Shown here piece by piece: positions 5,131-40,285 of a DNA stretch of 64,000 nt (position 1 is its first letter; each line of letters begins with the position of its first letter). The notes beneath the pieces are model-generated. The model searched no databases, was not told where the DNA came from, and worked only from the letters and a program-made list of their open reading frames with translations. The DNA comes from Myxococcales bacterium. GTDB lineage: Bacteria; Myxococcota; Myxococcia; Myxococcales; Myxococcaceae. The stretch is taken from assembly GCA_016191815.1 (NCBI GenBank), contig JACPVI010000002.1, positions 124,001 through 188,000 on the forward strand, read 5' to 3'. The position numbers and the translations under genes were made by a program.

Positions 5131-6117
5131 CTAGCCCTCGCCGAGCTTGGCCTTCATCTCCGGGGTCAGCTCGCGCTCGGGGATCTTGTGCTTCACCGGC
5201 TTGAGCGACTTGAGCCAGGTGACCAGCGCGTCCATGTCCTCCTCGGTGAGCTGGGAGACGTGCCCGATCAGCAGGGACATCGGGGGAGCCATCTGCTTGC
5301 CGTCCAGCCGGTAGCCGGTGCGGAGGGCCTGCTTGAGCTGATCCGCGCTGTAGTTGCCGAGCCCGGTCTCCTCGTCGGAGGAGAGGTTCGAGGCGTGGAC
5401 CTTCCCCAGGCGCGGGTGCTCGAAGGCGAAATCGTAGCCCCCACCCATGTAGCGCTCGTCCTCCTTGCCGTAGGGCCCCTTGCCGCCCATGGAATGGCAG
5501 CTGGTGCAGTCGCCCAGCCGGCCCAGGTACTCGCCGTAGGCCACCTTGTCCTCGCGCGGCGGGGCCTTCACCTCCTTGGCCGGCGGGTGGTGAGCGACGC
5601 CCATCCCCATCATCATCCCCATCATGAAGGGGACCTCGTTCTTCGCACGCGGCTTGGGCTGCTTCACCTTGGGCACCGTGCGCAGGTAGGCCACCACCGC
5701 GCGGGCGTCGTCGTCGGACATGTACTGGTAGTTGCCGAAGGGCATGATCGGGAACATCAGCCGCCCGTCCTTGGTGACCCCGTCGCGGACGCCGCGCAAG
5801 AGCTCGTCGTCCGACCAGGAGCCCACGCCGGTCTCGATGTCGCCGCTGATGTTGGGGATCCAGATCTTCAGCCCCATGCTCGGGGCCTCGTCCACGTTGC
5901 CGCCGCCGAGGAACATGTCCGAGCGCTTGGAGTCGTAGAGCTCGCCCGAGTCGCGAGTGGTGTGGCAGGCGCCGCAGTACGTCACCTGATTGACCAGGTA
6001 CTCGCCGCGCTGGAGCCGCTCCGGCGTGGGCTCGATCACCTCCTGGGTCGTCTCACGAATGTACTTCCCGGTGCAGCCGATCGACACGCACAGCAGTAGC
6101 CCCAAGCTCCGTTTCAC
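5131..6117 (-). CDS. Di-haem cytochrome c lipoprotein
   Basis: 328 residues with two haem-binding CxxCH sites, CGACH at 48-52 and CTSCH at about 205-209, in two cytochrome-c domains; Met ligands are likely in the GNYQYM and KQMAPPM segments. The N-terminus is a lipoprotein signal with the lipobox VSIGC (Cys15), so the protein should sit in the periplasm attached to a membrane, passing electrons between respiratory or oxidative enzymes. A Met/Pro-rich linker (MMGMMMGMG) separates the domains and might bind metal. Converges with the SCP2-like gene 20 bases away. Confidence 0.88.
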   Translation of the reverse strand: MKRSLGLLLCVSIGCTGKYIRETTQEVIEPTPERLQRGEYLVNQVTYCGACHTTRDSGELYDSKRSDMFLGGGNVDEAPSMGLKIWIPNISGDIETGVGSWSDDELLRGVRDGVTKDGRLMFPIMPFGNYQYMSDDDARAVVAYLRTVPKVKQPKPRAKNEVPFMMGMMMGMGVAHHPPAKEVKAPPREDKVAYGEYLGRLGDCTSCHSMGGKGPYGKEDERYMGGGYDFAFEHPRLGKVHASNLSSDEETGLGNYSADQLKQALRTGYRLDGKQMAPPMSLLIGHVSQLTEEDMDALVTWLKSLKPVKHKIPERELTPEMKAKLGEG

Positions 6118-6156
6118 GAAGACCTCCGGTCGAGGAAAAGCGCCCCTCCGCGCGGG

Positions 6157-7788
6157 CTAGGGACTCTGGCGGGAGGGGTCCGGAAAGACAAGCCTCAACT
6201 GCGGCGCGGCCGAGAGGAACTGCAGCTCCGGGTGCTTCTCCTTGGCGTGGTCCAGCGCCCAGTCGTCGCGGAAGAGCACCAGCGGTTTCCCGTCCCGGTC
6301 TTCCACCGTCTGGCGGTTGCCTTCCCAGTCGAAGGACTTGGGGTCGAAGCTTGGGCCCACCACCCAGCGCGCGTGCGAGTAGGGGAGCCGGTCGAGCAGG
6401 ATGTCCGCCCCGTACTCGTGCTGCACCCGGTACTGGAGCACCTCGAGCTGCAGCGCCCCCACCACCCCCACGATGGGGTCCTTCATCCCCATGCCGAGCT
6501 GGTGGAAGATCTGCACCGTCCCCTCTTCGGAGAGCTGCTCGAGGCCCTTCTCCATCTGCTTGCGCCGGAGCGGATCCTTCGCCCGCACCACCGCGAAGTG
6601 CTCGGGGGAGAAGCGCGGCACGCCTTCGAACTCGAAGCCTGCGCCCTCGGCGAGGGTGTCGCCGATGCGGTACTGGCCCGGGTCGAACAGGCCGATCACG
6701 TCGCCCGGCCAGGCGTCCTCGATGGCGGTGCGCTCCGCGGCCAAGAACTGGCTGGGCTTGGCCAGGCGCACCTCCTTGCCCAGCCTGGTGTTATAGGCAG
6801 ACATCCCCTTCACGTACCGGCCCGAGACCACCCGCAGGAAGGCCACTCGGTCGCGGTGGGCCGGATCCATGTTCGCCTGGATCTTGAAGACGAAGCCGGA
6901 GAAACGAGTGTCCGCCGGCCGCACCGGCCCCTTGGTGGAGAGCCGCTCCAGCGGAGGCGGCGCCAGCGTAAGGAAGGCGTCCAGGAACGGCCGCACCCCG
7001 AAGTTGGTCATCGCGCTCCCGAAGAACAAAGGAGTGATCAGCGCCCGGTCGCACTTCTCGCGGGAGAACTCGTCTCCTCCCACGTCGAGCAGCTCGATGT
7101 CCTCCTGGAGCCTCTGGAGCTCCCGCTCGGAGAGCACCTTGCGGAGCTCCACCGAGCCCGCAGGCACCAGATGCTCCTTGACCTCTCTTTCGCCGTGGCT
7201 TTGGTCCCCCTCGAAGAGGTGGAGCACCTTGGCGCGCCGGTCGTAGACGCCGCGGAACTCGGGGCCGCTGCCGATCGGCCAGTTCATCGGGAAAGCGCGG
7301 ATGCCCAACACCTGCTCGAGCTCGTCCATCAAGGAGAGCGGCTCGCGGCCGTAGCGGTCGAGCTTGTTCACGAAGGTGAAGATGGGGATCTGCCGCATCC
7401 GGCAGACCTGGAAGAGCTTCTTGGTCTGCGGCTCCACGCCTTTGGCGGCGTCGATCAGCATCACCGCGCTGTCCGCGGCGGTGAGGGTGCGGTAGGTGTC
7501 CTCGGAGAAGTCCTGGTGGCCGGGGGTGTCGAGCAGGTTCACCGCGTGGCCGGCGTAGGGGAACTGCAAGACCGAGGAGGTCACCGAGATGCCGCGCTCC
7601 TTCTCCAGCTCCATCCAGTCGCTGGTGGCGTGGCGGCGGGCCCTCCGCGCCTTCACGCTCCCCGCGAGGTGAATGGCCCCTCCGTAGAGGAGGAGCTTCT
7701 CGGTGAGCGTGGTCTTCCCCGCGTCGGGGTGGCTGATGATGGCGAACGTGCGCCTTCGGGCGACTTCGCGCTCTAGCTCGGAGGCCAT
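6157..7788 (-). CDS. prfC: Peptide chain release factor 3
   Basis: 543-residue translational GTPase that recycles RF1/RF2 after peptide release. The GTP-binding motifs are all present: P-loop SHPDAGKT near residue 19, DTPGHQDF near 85, and NKLDR near 140; domains II and III follow in the usual order and the length is normal for RF3. Start ATG at 7788. A divergent gene begins 115 bases away, so this gene probably has its own promoter in that gap. Confidence 0.95.
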   Translation of the reverse strand: MASELEREVARRRTFAIISHPDAGKTTLTEKLLLYGGAIHLAGSVKARRARRHATSDWMELEKERGISVTSSVLQFPYAGHAVNLLDTPGHQDFSEDTYRTLTAADSAVMLIDAAKGVEPQTKKLFQVCRMRQIPIFTFVNKLDRYGREPLSLMDELEQVLGIRAFPMNWPIGSGPEFRGVYDRRAKVLHLFEGDQSHGEREVKEHLVPAGSVELRKVLSERELQRLQEDIELLDVGGDEFSREKCDRALITPLFFGSAMTNFGVRPFLDAFLTLAPPPLERLSTKGPVRPADTRFSGFVFKIQANMDPAHRDRVAFLRVVSGRYVKGMSAYNTRLGKEVRLAKPSQFLAAERTAIEDAWPGDVIGLFDPGQYRIGDTLAEGAGFEFEGVPRFSPEHFAVVRAKDPLRRKQMEKGLEQLSEEGTVQIFHQLGMGMKDPIVGVVGALQLEVLQYRVQHEYGADILLDRLPYSHARWVVGPSFDPKSFDWEGNRQTVEDRDGKPLVLFRDDWALDHAKEKHPELQFLSAAPQLRLVFPDPSRQSP

Positions 7789-36481: not shown

Positions 36482-36555
36482 AAGCCGGTCGTCCAATGGC
36501 AGGACAACAGTCTCCAGAACTGTGGGCGAGAGTTCGAATCTCTCCCGGCTTGCCA
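36482..36555 (+). tRNA. tRNA-Trp (anticodon CCA), encodes CCA end
   Basis: Acceptor AAGCCGG/CCGGCTT, D-arm, anticodon stem ACAGT/ACTGT with loop CTCCAGA, T-arm GAGAG/CTCTC, discriminator G and a genomic CCA. First gene of the array. Confidence 0.93.
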
Positions 36556-36556
36556 T

Positions 36557-36629
36557 GCCTCAGCTGCTCCGGTGGCGGAGCACCTGTTTCGTAAACAGGA
36601 GGCCGTCGGTTCGACTCCGACCTGGGGCT
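36557..36629 (+). tRNA. tRNA-Thr (anticodon CGT)
   Basis: Acceptor GCCTCAG/CTGGGGC (one G-T pair), anticodon stem CCTGT/ACAGG, loop TTCGTAA. Position 8 is C instead of the near-universal T. No genomic CCA. A spacer with two short hairpins (about 36633-36650 and 36692-36708) and no gene follows. Confidence 0.9.
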
Positions 36630-36790
36630 TCAGGCGACAGAGGAGTCGCCGGACCCGACGGGCGTACCAACGGTCGTGGCGTGGGAGCTGTCCCGGTCGG
36701 CGGGACGGGTCGGGGCGAAGCTCTGTGACAGTCGAATAGCGGTGAGAGGGAGGGCCCAAGGGGAGAGGTGTGCCTGAGGGGCCTTCCTCC

Positions 36791-36862
36791 GGGCTCGTCG
36801 TTCAACCGGAAGGACCGCGGATTCTTAATCCGCCAATCGGGGTTCGACTCCCCGCGAGCCCA
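36791..36862 (+). tRNA. tRNA-Lys (anticodon CTT)
   Basis: Acceptor GGGCTCG/CGAGCCC, anticodon stem GCGGA/TCCGC, loop TTCTTAA, T-arm CGGGG/CCCCG with TTCGACT, discriminator A. Canonical fold. Confidence 0.93.
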
Positions 36863-36885
36863 TTCACGGCGGTGGCCCGGAGGGT

Positions 36886-36956
36886 GCAGCCGTAGCTCAA
36901 GGGCAGAGCCCCGGGTTGCCAGCTCGGAGATGCGGGTTCGACTCCCGCCGGCCGCT
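36886..36956 (+). tRNA. tRNA-Gly (anticodon GCC)
   Basis: Acceptor GCAGCCG/CGGCCGC with one A-C mismatch, D-stem GCTC/GAGC, anticodon stem CCGGG/CTCGG (one G-T), loop TTGCCAG. No genomic CCA. Confidence 0.88.
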
Positions 36957-36961
36957 TTCCC

Positions 36962-37044
36962 GGATGGCACGCACCCAGGTGGTGCAGCGGGCCGTAACCC
37001 CGCCGGCCTTGGGGCCAGGGAAGGTTCGAGTCCTTCGCCATCCA
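36962..37044 (+). tRNA. tRNA-Tyr (anticodon GTA), C33 variant
   Basis: Acceptor GGATGGC/GCCATCC, type II with a variable arm (GGCC/GGCC). Anticodon loop CCGTAAC has C at position 33, and position 8 is A. Both are deviations from near-universal residues. Confidence 0.88.
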
Positions 37045-37069
37045 TCAAGCCCCGGCGGGCCAGCACCAG

Positions 37070-37906
37070 GTGTGGACGGTGGAGCGCGTCCTCGACCGCG
37101 CGAGCGGCCGCGAGGTGAGCGCCGTCTCCGTGGAGGAGTTCGAGGCGAGCGCGGTGCAGGTGGAGCCGCTCCGCGAGGAGCTCCGGGCGCTGGCGCCGGC
37201 CTCGGACTACGTGGAGGCCACCGCTCCGGAGGGGACGGTGGCGCTCCGCTACGTGGACGGCGTCCTGGACGCGGTGCTGCCCTCGGGCCGCCACGCCGCG
37301 TGGACCACCCAGCACAAGGTGCAGCTCGCGGTCATCGACCTCCGCGAGCGGGTGCTGCACGTCACTGGTCAGGAGGTGATGACCAAGGACCGCGTCACCC
37401 TGCGCCTCAACCTCTCGGCGGAGTTTTCCGTGGCGGACGCCCGCCGCCTGGCCTCGGTGGCGCGCAACGCGGAGGACATCCTCTACCTCGCGATGCAGCT
37501 CTCCGCGCGCGAGGCGGTGGCGTCGGTGTCGCTGGATGAGCTGCTCGCCCTGCGCGAGAAGCTGTCTGTCGCGATGCAGGCCGAGGTCGACTCGCGCGCC
37601 GCCAACGTGGGGCTCAAGCTGCTTCGCTTCGGCATCAAGGACGTGGTGCTGCCGGGGGAGATGAAGGCGCTCCTCAACCGCGTCATCGAGGCGCAGAAGG
37701 AAGCCGAGGCGAACGTCATCCTCCGCCGGGAGGAGACGGCCGCCACCCGCTCGATGGCGCAGACGGCGAAGGTGCTCGGTGAGAACCCGCTCCTGGTCCG
37801 CCTCAAGGAGCTCGAGGCGTACAAGGAGCTGGCGGGCAAGGTGGGCCAGGTGCACCTAGTGCTGGGCCAGTCGGCGATGCCAGCGCTCCAGCTCAAAGGC
37901 TCCTGA
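37070..37906 (+). CDS. Slipin / SPFH (band 7) domain protein, no membrane anchor
   Basis: 278 residues. The SPFH core is recognisable: VALRYVDGVLDAVLPSGRHAAW, then LHVTGQEVMTKDRVTLRLNLSAEF and a long helical region (about 150-255) with MKALLNRVIEAQKEAEANVILRREE, as in slipins and stomatins. Unlike typical slipins there is no N-terminal hydrophobic hairpin, so it is probably soluble or peripheral. It sits inside the tRNA array, 26 bases after tRNA-Tyr; GTG start at 37070. A 14-bp hairpin follows its stop. From general knowledge, slipin genes can accompany rtcB RNA-repair genes, which fits the rtcB remnant in this array. Confidence 0.85.
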   Translation: MWTVERVLDRASGREVSAVSVEEFEASAVQVEPLREELRALAPASDYVEATAPEGTVALRYVDGVLDAVLPSGRHAAWTTQHKVQLAVIDLRERVLHVTGQEVMTKDRVTLRLNLSAEFSVADARRLASVARNAEDILYLAMQLSAREAVASVSLDELLALREKLSVAMQAEVDSRAANVGLKLLRFGIKDVVLPGEMKALLNRVIEAQKEAEANVILRREETAATRSMAQTAKVLGENPLLVRLKELEAYKELAGKVGQVHLVLGQSAMPALQLKGS

Positions 37907-37924
37907 GTGGCAGCGAGCGGCAAC

Positions 37925-37960
37925 CCCCTCCCGCGGGCGAGCAGAAGCCCGCGGGAGGGG
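37925..37960 (+). other. 14-bp perfect hairpin after slipin gene
   Basis: CCCCTCCCGCGGGC (37925-37938) pairs exactly with 37947-37960 across an 8-base loop. No T-run follows, so it is more likely an RNA-processing or stability element between the slipin gene and tRNA-Leu than a terminator. Confidence 0.75.
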
Positions 37961-37974
37961 AGGGGCCGGGCATG

Positions 37975-38047
37975 GCCCCCGTGGCGAATCGGTAGAGCGG
38001 CCGGCTCAAGCCCGGCGTCGTTGCAGGTTCGACTCCTGCCGGGGGCA
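37975..38047 (+). tRNA. tRNA-Leu (anticodon CAA) with short variable loop
   Basis: Acceptor GCCCCCG/CGGGGGC and a Leu-like D region (TGGCGAATCGGTAGA), anticodon stem GCCGG/CCGGC, loop CTCAAGC. The variable region is only about 6 bases (GTCGTT), whereas bacterial tRNA-Leu is type II; the identity elements have been lost or are altered. Confidence 0.8.
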
Positions 38048-38089
38048 AGACAAGACAGCGTGGCCACGGGCCACAGAAAGGAGCGGGCC

Positions 38090-38635
38090 ATGGAGACTTT
38101 GATGCTCGATGTGGGCTACCTGCCGCTGGCCCGCGTCCGGTGGCGGCGCGCGCTAAGGCTCCTGCTCGCCGGGAAGGTGGAGATGGTGGAGGAGTACGAG
38201 GGCCGGTGCGCCCGCGCCGCGAGCCTCGAGCTTCGCATTCCGTCGGTGGTGCGGCTGCTCCAGGTGGTTCGCCGCCGCCAGGGCGGAGTGAGGTTCAGCC
38301 GGGAGAACGTCTGGGCCCGGGACAAGGGCCGCTGCCAGTACTGCGGCGCGAGGGTGTCGCGGCTCGACTTCACCTACGACCACGTGGTGCCCCGGGCCCT
38401 GGGTGGCGCCACCCGCTGGGAGAACGTGGTGGTCTCGTGCGTGCCCTGCAACCAGCGGAAGGGCGGGCGGACTCCCAAGGGCGCCCGGATGCGGCTCATC
38501 GGCCAGCCGGGCATGCCGAAGCCGTTGCCGGGCAGCCTGAGGCTCACCTTCGCCTGGCATGAGGGGATGCCCACTGGCTGGAAGCAGTGGCTGCGGTCGG
38601 TGGCGTACTGGAACGCCGAGCTCGAATCGAGCTGA
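38090..38635 (+). CDS. HNH endonuclease
   Basis: 181 residues. The zinc and catalytic region is clear: C82 and C85 in CQYCG, DH at 97-98 in YDHVVPRALGG, and C117/C120 with N121 in CVPCNQRKGG. This is the common bacterial HNH family (McrA-like). The start ATG at 38090 follows a GAAAGGAG ribosome site; an in-frame GTG at 37907 would be inside tRNA-Leu. It may be an inserted mobile endonuclease or part of the array's function. A 14-bp hairpin follows the stop. Confidence 0.9.
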   Translation: METLMLDVGYLPLARVRWRRALRLLLAGKVEMVEEYEGRCARAASLELRIPSVVRLLQVVRRRQGGVRFSRENVWARDKGRCQYCGARVSRLDFTYDHVVPRALGGATRWENVVVSCVPCNQRKGGRTPKGARMRLIGQPGMPKPLPGSLRLTFAWHEGMPTGWKQWLRSVAYWNAELESS

Positions 38636-38650
38636 GCCGGCGAAGCGGAG

Positions 38651-38692
38651 CGGGGCGGGCGAGCAAGAGAGGAGCACCGCTCGCCCGCCCCG
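38651..38692 (+). other. 14-bp perfect hairpin after HNH gene
   Basis: CGGGGCGGGCGAGC (38651-38664) pairs exactly with 38679-38692 across a 14-base loop. It has the same length of stem and the same GCGGGCGAGCA core as the hairpin after the slipin gene. Confidence 0.75.
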
Positions 38693-38708
38693 CGGCCGGA
38701 GGTGCGAT

Positions 38709-38779
38709 GCGGGAGTGGCTCAACGGCAGAGCTCCGGCCCTCCAAGCCGGCTTTGAGGGTTCGACTCCCTTCTCCCGCT
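38709..38779 (+). tRNA. tRNA-Gly (anticodon TCC), C33 variant
   Basis: Acceptor GCGGGAG/CTCCCGC, anticodon stem CCGGC/GCCGG, loop CCTCCAA with C at position 33. T-arm GAGGG/CCCTT includes one G-T pair. Confidence 0.85.
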
Positions 38780-38802
38780 TGCTTTGCGGGCGTGGCCGTC
38801 GC

Positions 38803-38878
38803 TGGGGCGTGGTTCAACTGGAAGAACGCCTGGCTCTGACCCGGGAGACTGGAGGTTCGACTCCTCCCGCCCCAGCCA
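38803..38878 (+). tRNA. tRNA-Gln (anticodon CTG), encodes CCA end
   Basis: Acceptor TGGGGCG/CGCCCCA (the T1-A72 pair typical of tRNA-Gln), anticodon stem CCTGG/CCGGG, loop CTCTGAC, discriminator G then genomic CCA. Confidence 0.92.
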
Positions 38879-38879
38879 T

Positions 38880-38951
38880 TCCACGGTAGCCAAGCGGCAA
38901 GGCGCCGAGCCGTTAACTCGGAGATCGCAGGTTCGACTCCTGCCCGTGGAG
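38880..38951 (+). tRNA. tRNA-Asn (anticodon GTT), C33 variant
   Basis: Acceptor TCCACGG/CCGTGGA, anticodon stem CCGAG/CTCGG, loop CCGTTAA with C at position 33 instead of T. Starts one base after the CCA of tRNA-Gln. Confidence 0.86.
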
Positions 38952-39003
38952 CTTCTGGCGCCGATCCATTCCTCAAGGCGGAGAAGGCGGGTTCGAATCC
39001 CAA
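38952..39003 (+). pseudogene. tRNA remnant
   Basis: A T-loop (GGGTTCGAATCCC) preceded by an incomplete anticodon-like region (CCTCAAGG) and no proper D-arm or 5' acceptor. Its 3' acceptor would be shared with the next gene's 5' acceptor, so it is a truncated relic. Confidence 0.55.
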
Positions 39004-39079
39004 CGGGAAGTGGAGGAGCCTGGTCAACCTCGTCGGCGTCGGAAGCCGAAGCGCGCCGGTTCGAATCCGGCCTTCCCGA
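39004..39079 (+). tRNA. tRNA-Pro (anticodon CGG)
   Basis: Acceptor CGGGAAG/CTTCCCG (C1-G72 typical of tRNA-Pro), anticodon stem TCGGC/GCCGA, loop GTCGGAA, T-arm GCCGG/CCGGC. Confidence 0.91.
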
Positions 39080-39083
39080 TGAA

Positions 39084-39154
39084 GGGAGCGTCGTCCAACG
39101 GCAGGGCCCTCGGTCGATTGCCGAGAGATGAACGTTCGAGTCGTTCCGCTCCTA
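39084..39154 (+). tRNA. tRNA-Ile (anticodon GAT), C33 variant
   Basis: Acceptor GGGAGCG/CGCTCCT (one G-T), anticodon stem CTCGG/CCGAG, loop TCGATTG. C is at position 33 and T at 37, where a purine is normal, so this is the most divergent anticodon loop. Confidence 0.75.
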
Positions 39155-39160
39155 ATCCCC

Positions 39161-39235
39161 GGCGGCGCTGGTGTAGCTGGCTCTGCACGGCGGATTGTGA
39201 CTCCGCAAGTTCGGGTTCGACTCCCGAGCGCCGCC
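39161..39235 (+). tRNA. tRNA-His (anticodon GTG)
   Basis: Has the diagnostic extra 5' G paired with C73 outside acceptor GCGGCGC/GCGCCGC. Anticodon stem GCGGA/TCCGC, loop TTGTGAC. Confidence 0.93.
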
Positions 39236-39243
39236 TTGGTGTT

Positions 39244-39315
39244 GGGACCGTAGGCCTCTGGTGAGGCTGCGCGGCTGTCTACCGCGCGAGGGCGGTTCAA
39301 TCCCGCTCGGTCCCG
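39244..39315 (+). tRNA. tRNA-Asp (anticodon GTC)
   Basis: Acceptor GGGACCG/CGGTCCC, anticodon stem CGCGG/CCGCG, loop CTGTCTA (T at 37), discriminator G. T-arm GGCGG/CCGCT with loop TTCAATC. Confidence 0.88.
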
Positions 39316-39321
39316 CTGTCC

Positions 39322-39394
39322 GCCGACTTGGCTCTGGTGGTCAGAGCGCCTGGCTGAAGCCCAGGAGAATCCGGTTCGACTCCGGGAGTCGGCA
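39322..39394 (+). tRNA. tRNA-Phe (anticodon GAA)
   Basis: Acceptor GCCGACT/AGTCGGC, D-stem GCTC/GAGC, anticodon stem CCTGG/CCAGG, loop CTGAAGC, discriminator A. Canonical. Confidence 0.93.
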
Positions 39395-39398
39395 ACTG

Positions 39399-39469
39399 GG
39401 GGTCATCGTCCAGTGGGAAGATGCCGCCTTCGCACGGCGGAGACGCCGGTTCGAATCCGGCTGACTCCA
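39399..39469 (+). tRNA. tRNA-Ala (anticodon CGC)
   Basis: Acceptor GGGGTCA/TGACTCC (one G-T), anticodon stem CCGCC/GGCGG, loop TTCGCAC, T-arm GCCGG/CCGGC. The D-stem is only 3 bp. Confidence 0.88.
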
Positions 39470-39589
39470 CTCGAGGCTCATCGTGGGCCAAGTCCTGGCG
39501 CGAAGGGCTTTCCGAGAGGGACGGCCGGTGCAGCGAGGGCTATTCCTGGCCGCCGTAGCTTTGGGCATTTCAAGGAGAGGCACACGTCG

Positions 39590-39730
39590 ATCAGCACGCT
39601 CAAGGGGAAAGTGGCGGACGTGAAGCTGTGGACGCCGGTTGGCGAGGTGGAGTCCTCCGCGCTCGACCAGCTCCGGCGCATCGCGGCCCTTCCCTGGGTT
39701 TTCCACCGCGTGGCGGCGATGCCGGACGTC
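39590..39730 (+). pseudogene. rtcB: 5' fragment of rtcB (RNA ligase) within the tRNA array
   Basis: The frame encodes about 47 residues with the RtcB N-terminal pattern: VADVKLWTPVGEVESSALDQL, then AALPWVFHRVAAMPDV, matching the known start of RtcB up to the PDV where the first metal-binding Asp lies. The position expected for the start codon reads ATC (39590), 9 bases after an AAGGAGAGG ribosome site, so ATG to ATC is the likely change. The gene then stops abruptly and a tRNA-Arg gene begins two bases later. All the catalytic domain is missing. Confidence 0.85.
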
Positions 39731-39731
39731 T

Positions 39732-39806
39732 GTCCTCGTAGCTCAATGGAGCCAGAGCATCCGGTTACGAACCGGAGGGCTGGGGGTTCGAGTCCCTCCG
39801 AGGACG
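39732..39806 (+). tRNA. tRNA-Arg (anticodon ACG)
   Basis: Acceptor GTCCTCG/CGAGGAC, D-stem GCTC/GAGC, anticodon stem TCCGG/CCGGA, loop TTACGAA. A34 would normally be edited to inosine. It directly follows the rtcB fragment. Confidence 0.92.
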
Positions 39807-39812
39807 CTCACT

Positions 39813-39886
39813 GGCCTCGTAGCCCAACGGATGAGAGCGCACGCTTCCGAAGCGTGAGGCTCCCGGTTCGAGCCCGGGCGAGGCCG
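39813..39886 (+). tRNA. tRNA-Arg (anticodon CCG)
   Basis: Acceptor GGCCTCG/CGAGGCC, anticodon stem CACGC/GCGTG, loop TTCCGAA, T-arm CCCGG/CCGGG. The D-stem has one mismatch. Confidence 0.91.
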
Positions 39887-39888
39887 CT

Positions 39889-39960
39889 GTCCCCATCGCC
39901 CAACGGAGAGGGCGCGGGTTTCCTACACCCGAGATCCAGGTTCGAATCCTGGTGGGGGCA
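39889..39960 (+). tRNA. tRNA-Arg (anticodon CCT)
   Basis: Acceptor GTCCCCA/TGGGGGC (one T-G), D-stem GCCC/GGGC, anticodon stem CGGGT/ACCCG, loop TTCCTAC, discriminator A. Confidence 0.9.
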
Positions 39961-40043
39961 CTCCGCGGGCGGGTGGAACATTGCTCGCGCCGGACTCATG
40001 AGCCAGCAGGCCGCCGAGCTGGACTCCTGGCGCCGGAAACCAA

Positions 40044-40115
40044 CGTGCGCACCTGGTGGCTCCAGGCCCCGCTCTCATGAAGCGGAGGAAGTGGGTTCGA
40101 CTCCCTCGCGCACGA
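40044..40115 (+). tRNA. tRNA-Met (anticodon CAT)
   Basis: Acceptor CGTGCGC/GCGCACG, anticodon stem CCGCT/AGCGG, loop CTCATGA. Position 8 is A, position 37 is G. An elongator Met or, if lysidine-modified, Ile2 is possible; the fully paired acceptor argues against the initiator. Confidence 0.8.
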
Positions 40116-40120
40116 CATCT

Positions 40121-40196
40121 GCCGGACAGCTCACCTGGAGGTGATGCCTCTCTCACACGGAGGTTGCGCAGGGTCCGATTCCCTGGTCCGGTACCA
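40121..40196 (+). tRNA. tRNA-Val (anticodon CAC), encodes CCA end
   Basis: Acceptor GCCGGAC/GTCCGGT, anticodon stem CCTCT/GGAGG, loop CTCACAC, genomic ACCA. Position 8 is A and the T-loop reads TCCGATT (position 55 C). Confidence 0.82.
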
Positions 40197-40198
40197 GC

Positions 40199-40285
40199 GC
40201 TCGGATGGCGGAAGTCCTGGTAGACGCGCGGGCCCCAGAAGCCCGTGGGCCCATGCCCATGCCGGTTCGACTCCGGCTTCGAGCA
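40199..40285 (+). tRNA. tRNA-Leu (anticodon CAG), C33 variant
   Basis: Acceptor GCTCGGA/TTCGAGC, type II with variable stem TGGGC/GCCCA, T-arm GCCGG/CCGGC. Anticodon stem CGGGC/GCCCG, loop CCCAGAA with C at position 33. Confidence 0.85.

Follow-up and report, generated by a model that had tools for sequence, protein, structure and literature searches.

According to a 2023 review, tRNA-Leu lacks its long variable arm only in animal mitochondria, where the arm is missing from both isoacceptors (UUR and CUN), which are charged by LeuRS with A73 and A14 as the main determinants (PMC9976931). Human mitochondrial LeuRS charges such an arm-less tRNA, and in the E. coli system A73 is crucial for LeuRS and the long arm is not, while A15-U48, G18G19 and A20a are essential; minimal tRNAs without the arm also stay active in leucine charging with the E. 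coli system (PMC9976931). A second body of work concerns accessory tRNA genes. Dense, redundant and phage-linked tRNA clusters that include HNH genes have been described as array units of mycobacteria, their plasmids and phages; the array tRNAs differ from chromosomal ones in the D, anticodon and variable arms, and arrays with HNH genes are regarded as putative antidefence systems (PMC12803027; PMC9569102). In Anabaena, the trn operon comprises 26 tRNA genes that are silent until induced by translational stress, and the TrcR regulon brings together this operon, rtcB, slipin and HNH genes (PMC10272220). Finally, some phage tRNAs escape tRNA-targeting defences through altered structure: the tRNA-Tyr of T5 resists retron-Eco7 by means of a distinctive variable loop (PMC13096335), and escapes in the anticodon loop are also documented among phage tRNAs (PMC10264068).

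The locus examined here lies in a window of 64,000 nucleotides from a member of the Myxococcaceae, whose genome (6.77 Mb in 89 contigs) carries the array within a long contig; all positions below refer to the window and all features lie on its forward strand. The accessory tRNA array (36482..40285) consists of 19 tRNAs called by ARAGORN, a tRNA-Leu(CAG) recovered with the Rfam tRNA model, and a tRNA-Asp(GTC) recognized by eye near 39245. It is dense (19 tRNAs in 3.7 kb), covers many isotypes and is redundant with the host, which holds duplicates of the array tRNA-Leu and of most other array isotypes. The tRNA that is the subject of this work, tRNA-Leu(CAA) at 37975..38047, is preceded directly on its 5' side by a slipin-like Band_7/SPFH gene of 278 aa (37070..37906; Pfam PF01145, 8e-26), whose named relatives come nearly all from Myxococcaceae and their kin, and is followed after 42 nt by an HNH endonuclease-like gene of 181 aa (38090..38635; PF14279/PF01844). 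The second tRNA-Leu of the array (40199..40285) is of type II, with anticodon CAG, and was found by the Rfam tRNA model (41.7 bits; C72:164199-164285 in the whole-genome search) and missed by ARAGORN; it keeps a variable arm, as the earlier note had stated, with 4 bp when read from the sequence. This tRNA carries C33, a position at which nearly all tRNAs have U33. The array tRNA-Tyr (36962-37044) and tRNA-Met (40044-40116) differ in their D arms from the chromosomal copies (e.g. CCTGGTGGCTCCAGG in Met), and similarly odd D arms occur in the arrays of relatives, so that array tRNAs look divergent yet conserved.

The likenesses to the described systems have their limits. The grouping of an accessory tRNA operon with slipin and HNH genes makes the Anabaena trn operon the closest described system for the role of the array, but in Anabaena the slipin gene (alr0740) lies outside the tRNA operon, whereas the slipin and HNH genes of the window lie inside the array. 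No RtcB gene stands beside the array; the two RtcB genes of the genome are both elsewhere, with no tRNAs near them. The mycobacterial units share the density, redundancy, HNH genes and phage link, but an Rfam search found no GOLLD RNA in the window, and the accessible portions of the mycobacterial reports do not mention a missing tRNA-Leu arm. Animal mitochondrial tRNA-Leu also lacks the arm, but belongs to a mitochondrial and structurally relaxed setting, in contrast to a copy in a G+C-rich bacterial array beside a full type II set. As for the phage escape tRNAs, altered structure in phage arrays is common ground, although the cases described concern tRNA-Tyr with an altered arm, while here the tRNA-Leu is arm-less and no attacker is known.

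The window tRNA-Leu(CAA), which the earlier note had described from its acceptor strand GCCCCCG, its anticodon CAA and a variable region of about 6 bases, was called by ARAGORN at exactly 37975-38047 (73 nt) and scored 46.8 bits (E 7.7e-7) against the Rfam tRNA model, whose gathering score is 29. Its stems comprise a 7-bp acceptor stem, a 2-bp D stem, a 5-bp anticodon stem and a 5-bp T stem, and 17 of 17 pairs in the acceptor (GCCCCCG/CGGGGGC), anticodon (GCCGG/CCGGC) and T stems (GCAGG/CCTGC) are Watson-Crick. The anticodon CAA at 34-36 is that of leucine, the discriminator is A73, and CCA is not encoded at the 3' end. The variable region (44-48; 38017..38022), as read from the sequence, is GTCGTT with U48 as its last base; at 6 nt it lies below the 10 nt or more that define class II. 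An alternative fold with a long arm, which would have overturned the earlier note's reading, is ruled out, because placing the 17 stem pairs leaves only 6 nt; the unconstrained minimum-energy fold of the tRNA is not a cloverleaf, but a long variable arm is missing from it as well.

The leucine-like D region that the earlier note had claimed held up in part: U48 is present and 13-22 is unpaired, but the pair 12-23 found in relatives is absent on both sides, leaving a D stem of two base pairs rather than three. By strict count position 15 of the window copy is U, and an A falls at this position only when a gap is left for the absent 12-23 pair. The copy is thus an outlier in its family, and its 2-bp D stem, together with the lack of A15 by strict count, may leave it weaker than the others. 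It is 75-78% identical to the array tRNA-Leu(CAA) of relatives, the nearest known sequences, versus 68% to the best host tRNA. Compared with these relatives, four to five of its stem pairs differ, each time through changes to both bases that preserve the pair, and no pair has changed at a single base; such two-sided changes point to selection for a working structure. Across the alignment of array type I tRNA-Leu, 611 of 612 cells in the acceptor, anticodon and T stems are paired.

These observations bear on whether the tRNA is a decaying copy on its way to a pseudogene, with the short arm and the short D stem as marks of relaxed selection. The D stem one pair short would agree with such a course, as would an Rfam score that is the second lowest of all array tRNAs above the gathering threshold, the C33 of the neighbouring tRNA-Leu(CAG) and the availability in the host of a full type II set (five tRNA-Leu encoded away from the array and bearing the anticodons CAA, CAG, GAG, TAA and TAG). 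Decay is nevertheless unlikely: the other 17 stem pairs are intact, the differences from relatives are solely two-sided and compensatory, the missing D-stem pair is gone on both sides, and the short arm is the state of the whole family rather than a lesion.

This last point emerges from a comparison of the window with 40 homologous loci of relatives, picked through homology of the HNH protein. In this set, all 36 distinct array tRNA-Leu called by ARAGORN (CAA, GAG and CAG) have a variable region of 5-6 nt, and all 36 carry A73, while array tRNA-Ser and tRNA-Tyr of the same loci have 15-19 nt and 12-18 nt, respectively. Of the relatives' loci, 33 have a tRNA just 5' of the HNH gene, and in 27 of them it is a type I tRNA-Leu, with a gap of mostly 19-28 nt; one relative (L026/L070) is an exception, with a type II tRNA-Leu(CAG) ahead of the HNH gene. 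The comparison with homologous arrays that the earlier note had proposed therefore returned the same short arm, at the matching site ahead of the HNH gene. A recent, local deletion of the arm is ruled out by the same family-wide state. On a wider scale, an exact type I tRNA-Leu pattern was run on 195 genomes of the phylum and matched 47 of them, and the reversed control pattern matched none; the matching genomes all belong to the family of the window, bar one from the same order. The window copy itself, with its shorter D stem, escapes this pattern. Type I tRNA-Leu(CAG) is not a sole decoder in any of the 15 genomes tested, all of which keep one type II tRNA-Leu(CAG), so the type I copies with this anticodon are extras.

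Other loci of relatives yielded further observations. In L509, L510, L512, L514 and L515, type I tRNA-Leu(CAG) and tRNA-Leu(GAG) occur in small clusters far from the HNH array, together with Glu, Asp, Gly, Leu, Pro, Ala, Arg and Val isotypes. The neighbours of the small type I tRNA-Leu arrays (L509-L515) either match no Pfam family or are mutually unrelated; one of them is a phage integrase. The integrase gene and a type I tRNA-Leu(CAG) overlap at the 3' end of the tRNA (L511:2766-4077), which suggests that this tRNA gene is an integration site. Where the slipin gene occurs alone in Myxococcaceae, a single tRNA-like element is found approximately 600 nt upstream (L003:5318-5393, L004:5305-5378, L011:5368-5441, L020:5274-5349 and about 22 more). 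Its D and T arms are conserved, its anticodon loop is hypervariable and irregular in length, its acceptor stem is sometimes imperfect, and it is typed variously as Gly, Ile, Ser, Thr, Met, Leu, Trp and others; the element is perhaps a mimic of tRNA or a sensor RNA and not a tRNA.

Short tRNA-Leu are also widespread in phages. Searches of IMG/VR with two type I tRNA-Leu patterns gave, among the matches listed, at least 325 short tRNA-Leu in at least 215 pieces by ARAGORN. Because this sample had been chosen for short tRNA-Leu, a second was drawn with a tRNA-Asn pattern; in these contigs, 19 of 58 distinct tRNA-Leu have a variable region of 5-7 nt, the others having at least 9 nt, while arm-less forms number 0 of 54 for tRNA-Ser and 0 of 27 for tRNA-Tyr. 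Among isolated phages, all three tRNA-Leu (TAG, CAA and TAA) of phage mistaenkt are of type I, as is the only tRNA-Leu in the stretch analysed of phage 4MG (both phages of E. coli K-12) and one tRNA-Leu of Mycobacterium phage Tourach (M. smegmatis); phage records label these arm-less genes plainly as tRNA-Leu. Myxococcus phage Mx1 carries two type I tRNA-Leu, one of which lies directly ahead of a homologue of the window HNH gene, and this pair is a phage version of the tRNA-Leu–HNH unit of the array. It occupies 5908-6540 of the Mx1 locus (L501), with a TROVE-domain gene approximately 4.4 kb upstream. Peptide patterns retrieved no relatives of the window HNH protein from IMG/VR, yet phages Mx1 and Rctr197k have homologues. 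With regard to a phage or plasmid origin of the array, the tRNA-Leu–HNH pair is shared with phage Mx1, but the array itself sits in a long contig of a bacterial genome.

The question of what these tRNAs are charged with was approached through a leucine core, scored as 13-22 unpaired, A15-U48 and A73. Among tRNA-Leu, the core was found in 94% of array type I copies, 95% of phage type I copies, 95% of phage type II copies and each of the five host type II copies. Other class I tRNAs show it at a rate of 1%, whether they come from the array set or from the Asn-selected phages. The earlier note had raised a possible change of charging, in which a synthetase other than LeuRS would load the window tRNA and another amino acid would be placed at UUG. 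With the anticodon masked, the body of the window copy indeed scores best as Phe, then Arg, in isotype profiles, and A35-A36 is common to tRNA-Phe; the same classifier, however, places Leu best for only 4 of 43 array type I tRNA-Leu, and it misassigns several ordinary array isotypes as well (Ala, Lys, Met and Tyr). PheRS needs G34, whereas position 34 here is C; A73 and U48 are kept in the window copy, and such miscoding would have to be common to many unrelated phages. Changed charging thus found no positive support and appears most improbable, the family having kept the E. coli leucine identity elements, among which the arm does not figure (PMC9976931).

The reading that we favour, with good though not full confidence, is that the window tRNA belongs to a lineage of type I tRNA-Leu that resides in accessory, phage-like arrays and is charged by LeuRS. 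Judged from its sequence, the window tRNA most likely receives leucine from the ordinary LeuRS and decodes UUG. Descent from a leucine tRNA that lost its arm is the likely ancestry, because the core of A15-U48, A73 and unpaired 13-22 survives in the family. The earlier note's proposal of arm loss by deletion is therefore likely to stand as ancestry, but not as something peculiar to this array, as the relatives and many phages are alike. Both C13 and G13/A13 occur among type I tRNA-Leu, and C13 is found in none of the 38 type II tRNA-Leu of the Asn-selected phages, which suggests that the arm was lost at least twice, giving C13-type and G13/A13-type cores. In mechanistic terms, bacterial LeuRS would read A73, the D-loop/T-loop core and A15-U48 rather than the arm, which would have left the arm free to disappear. 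For SerRS and TyrRS, by contrast, the variable arms of their tRNAs are needed, and the retention of Ser and Tyr arms in the same arrays fits this dependence. The array as a whole probably furnishes a supply when chromosomal tRNAs are damaged or limiting, a role proposed because the Anabaena regulon for translational stress, which includes a tRNA operon, also contains counterparts of its slipin and HNH genes; the array would be expressed under such stress.

Tolerance by LeuRS leaves room for a further, tentative suggestion, namely that arm loss is an adaptation that removes a handle for arm-dependent tRNA-targeting defences or toxins, which LeuRS tolerates and SerRS and TyrRS do not. Retron-Eco7 and Septu cleave tRNA-Tyr in the variable loop (PMC13096335), and MenT3 requires the long loop of tRNA-Ser (PMC11541572). 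If true, this adaptation would explain why the arm has been lost from about one third of phage tRNA-Leu, apparently more than once, and from no sampled tRNA-Ser or tRNA-Tyr. The suggestion is rated as no more than possible because, to our knowledge, there is no attacker of the tRNA-Leu arm. A different role, in which the array tRNAs are mainly decoys, absorbing nucleases that target tRNA or signalling to a damage sensor, with charging unnecessary, is very doubtful. Septu cuts both phage and host tRNA-Tyr, and the phage tRNA may be a decoy or a supplement (PMC13096335); damaged tRNAs induce RNA-repair genes in Salmonella, according to work cited in PMC10272220; and the slipin and HNH companions of the array would suit such a role. 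A decoy, however, would not need the leucine identity core and A73, which have been kept.

Searches of an open-access library turned up no publication that describes type I tRNA-Leu from bacteria or phages. The phage and accessory-array sequences, including those of phages of E. coli K-12, contradict the statement that the arm is missing only in animal mitochondria, and they call for caution with tools that type tRNAs by arm length. They also represent ready natural test cases for the view that LeuRS can do without the arm, and arm-less tRNA-Leu offers a testable explanation for the presence of odd tRNAs in phages.
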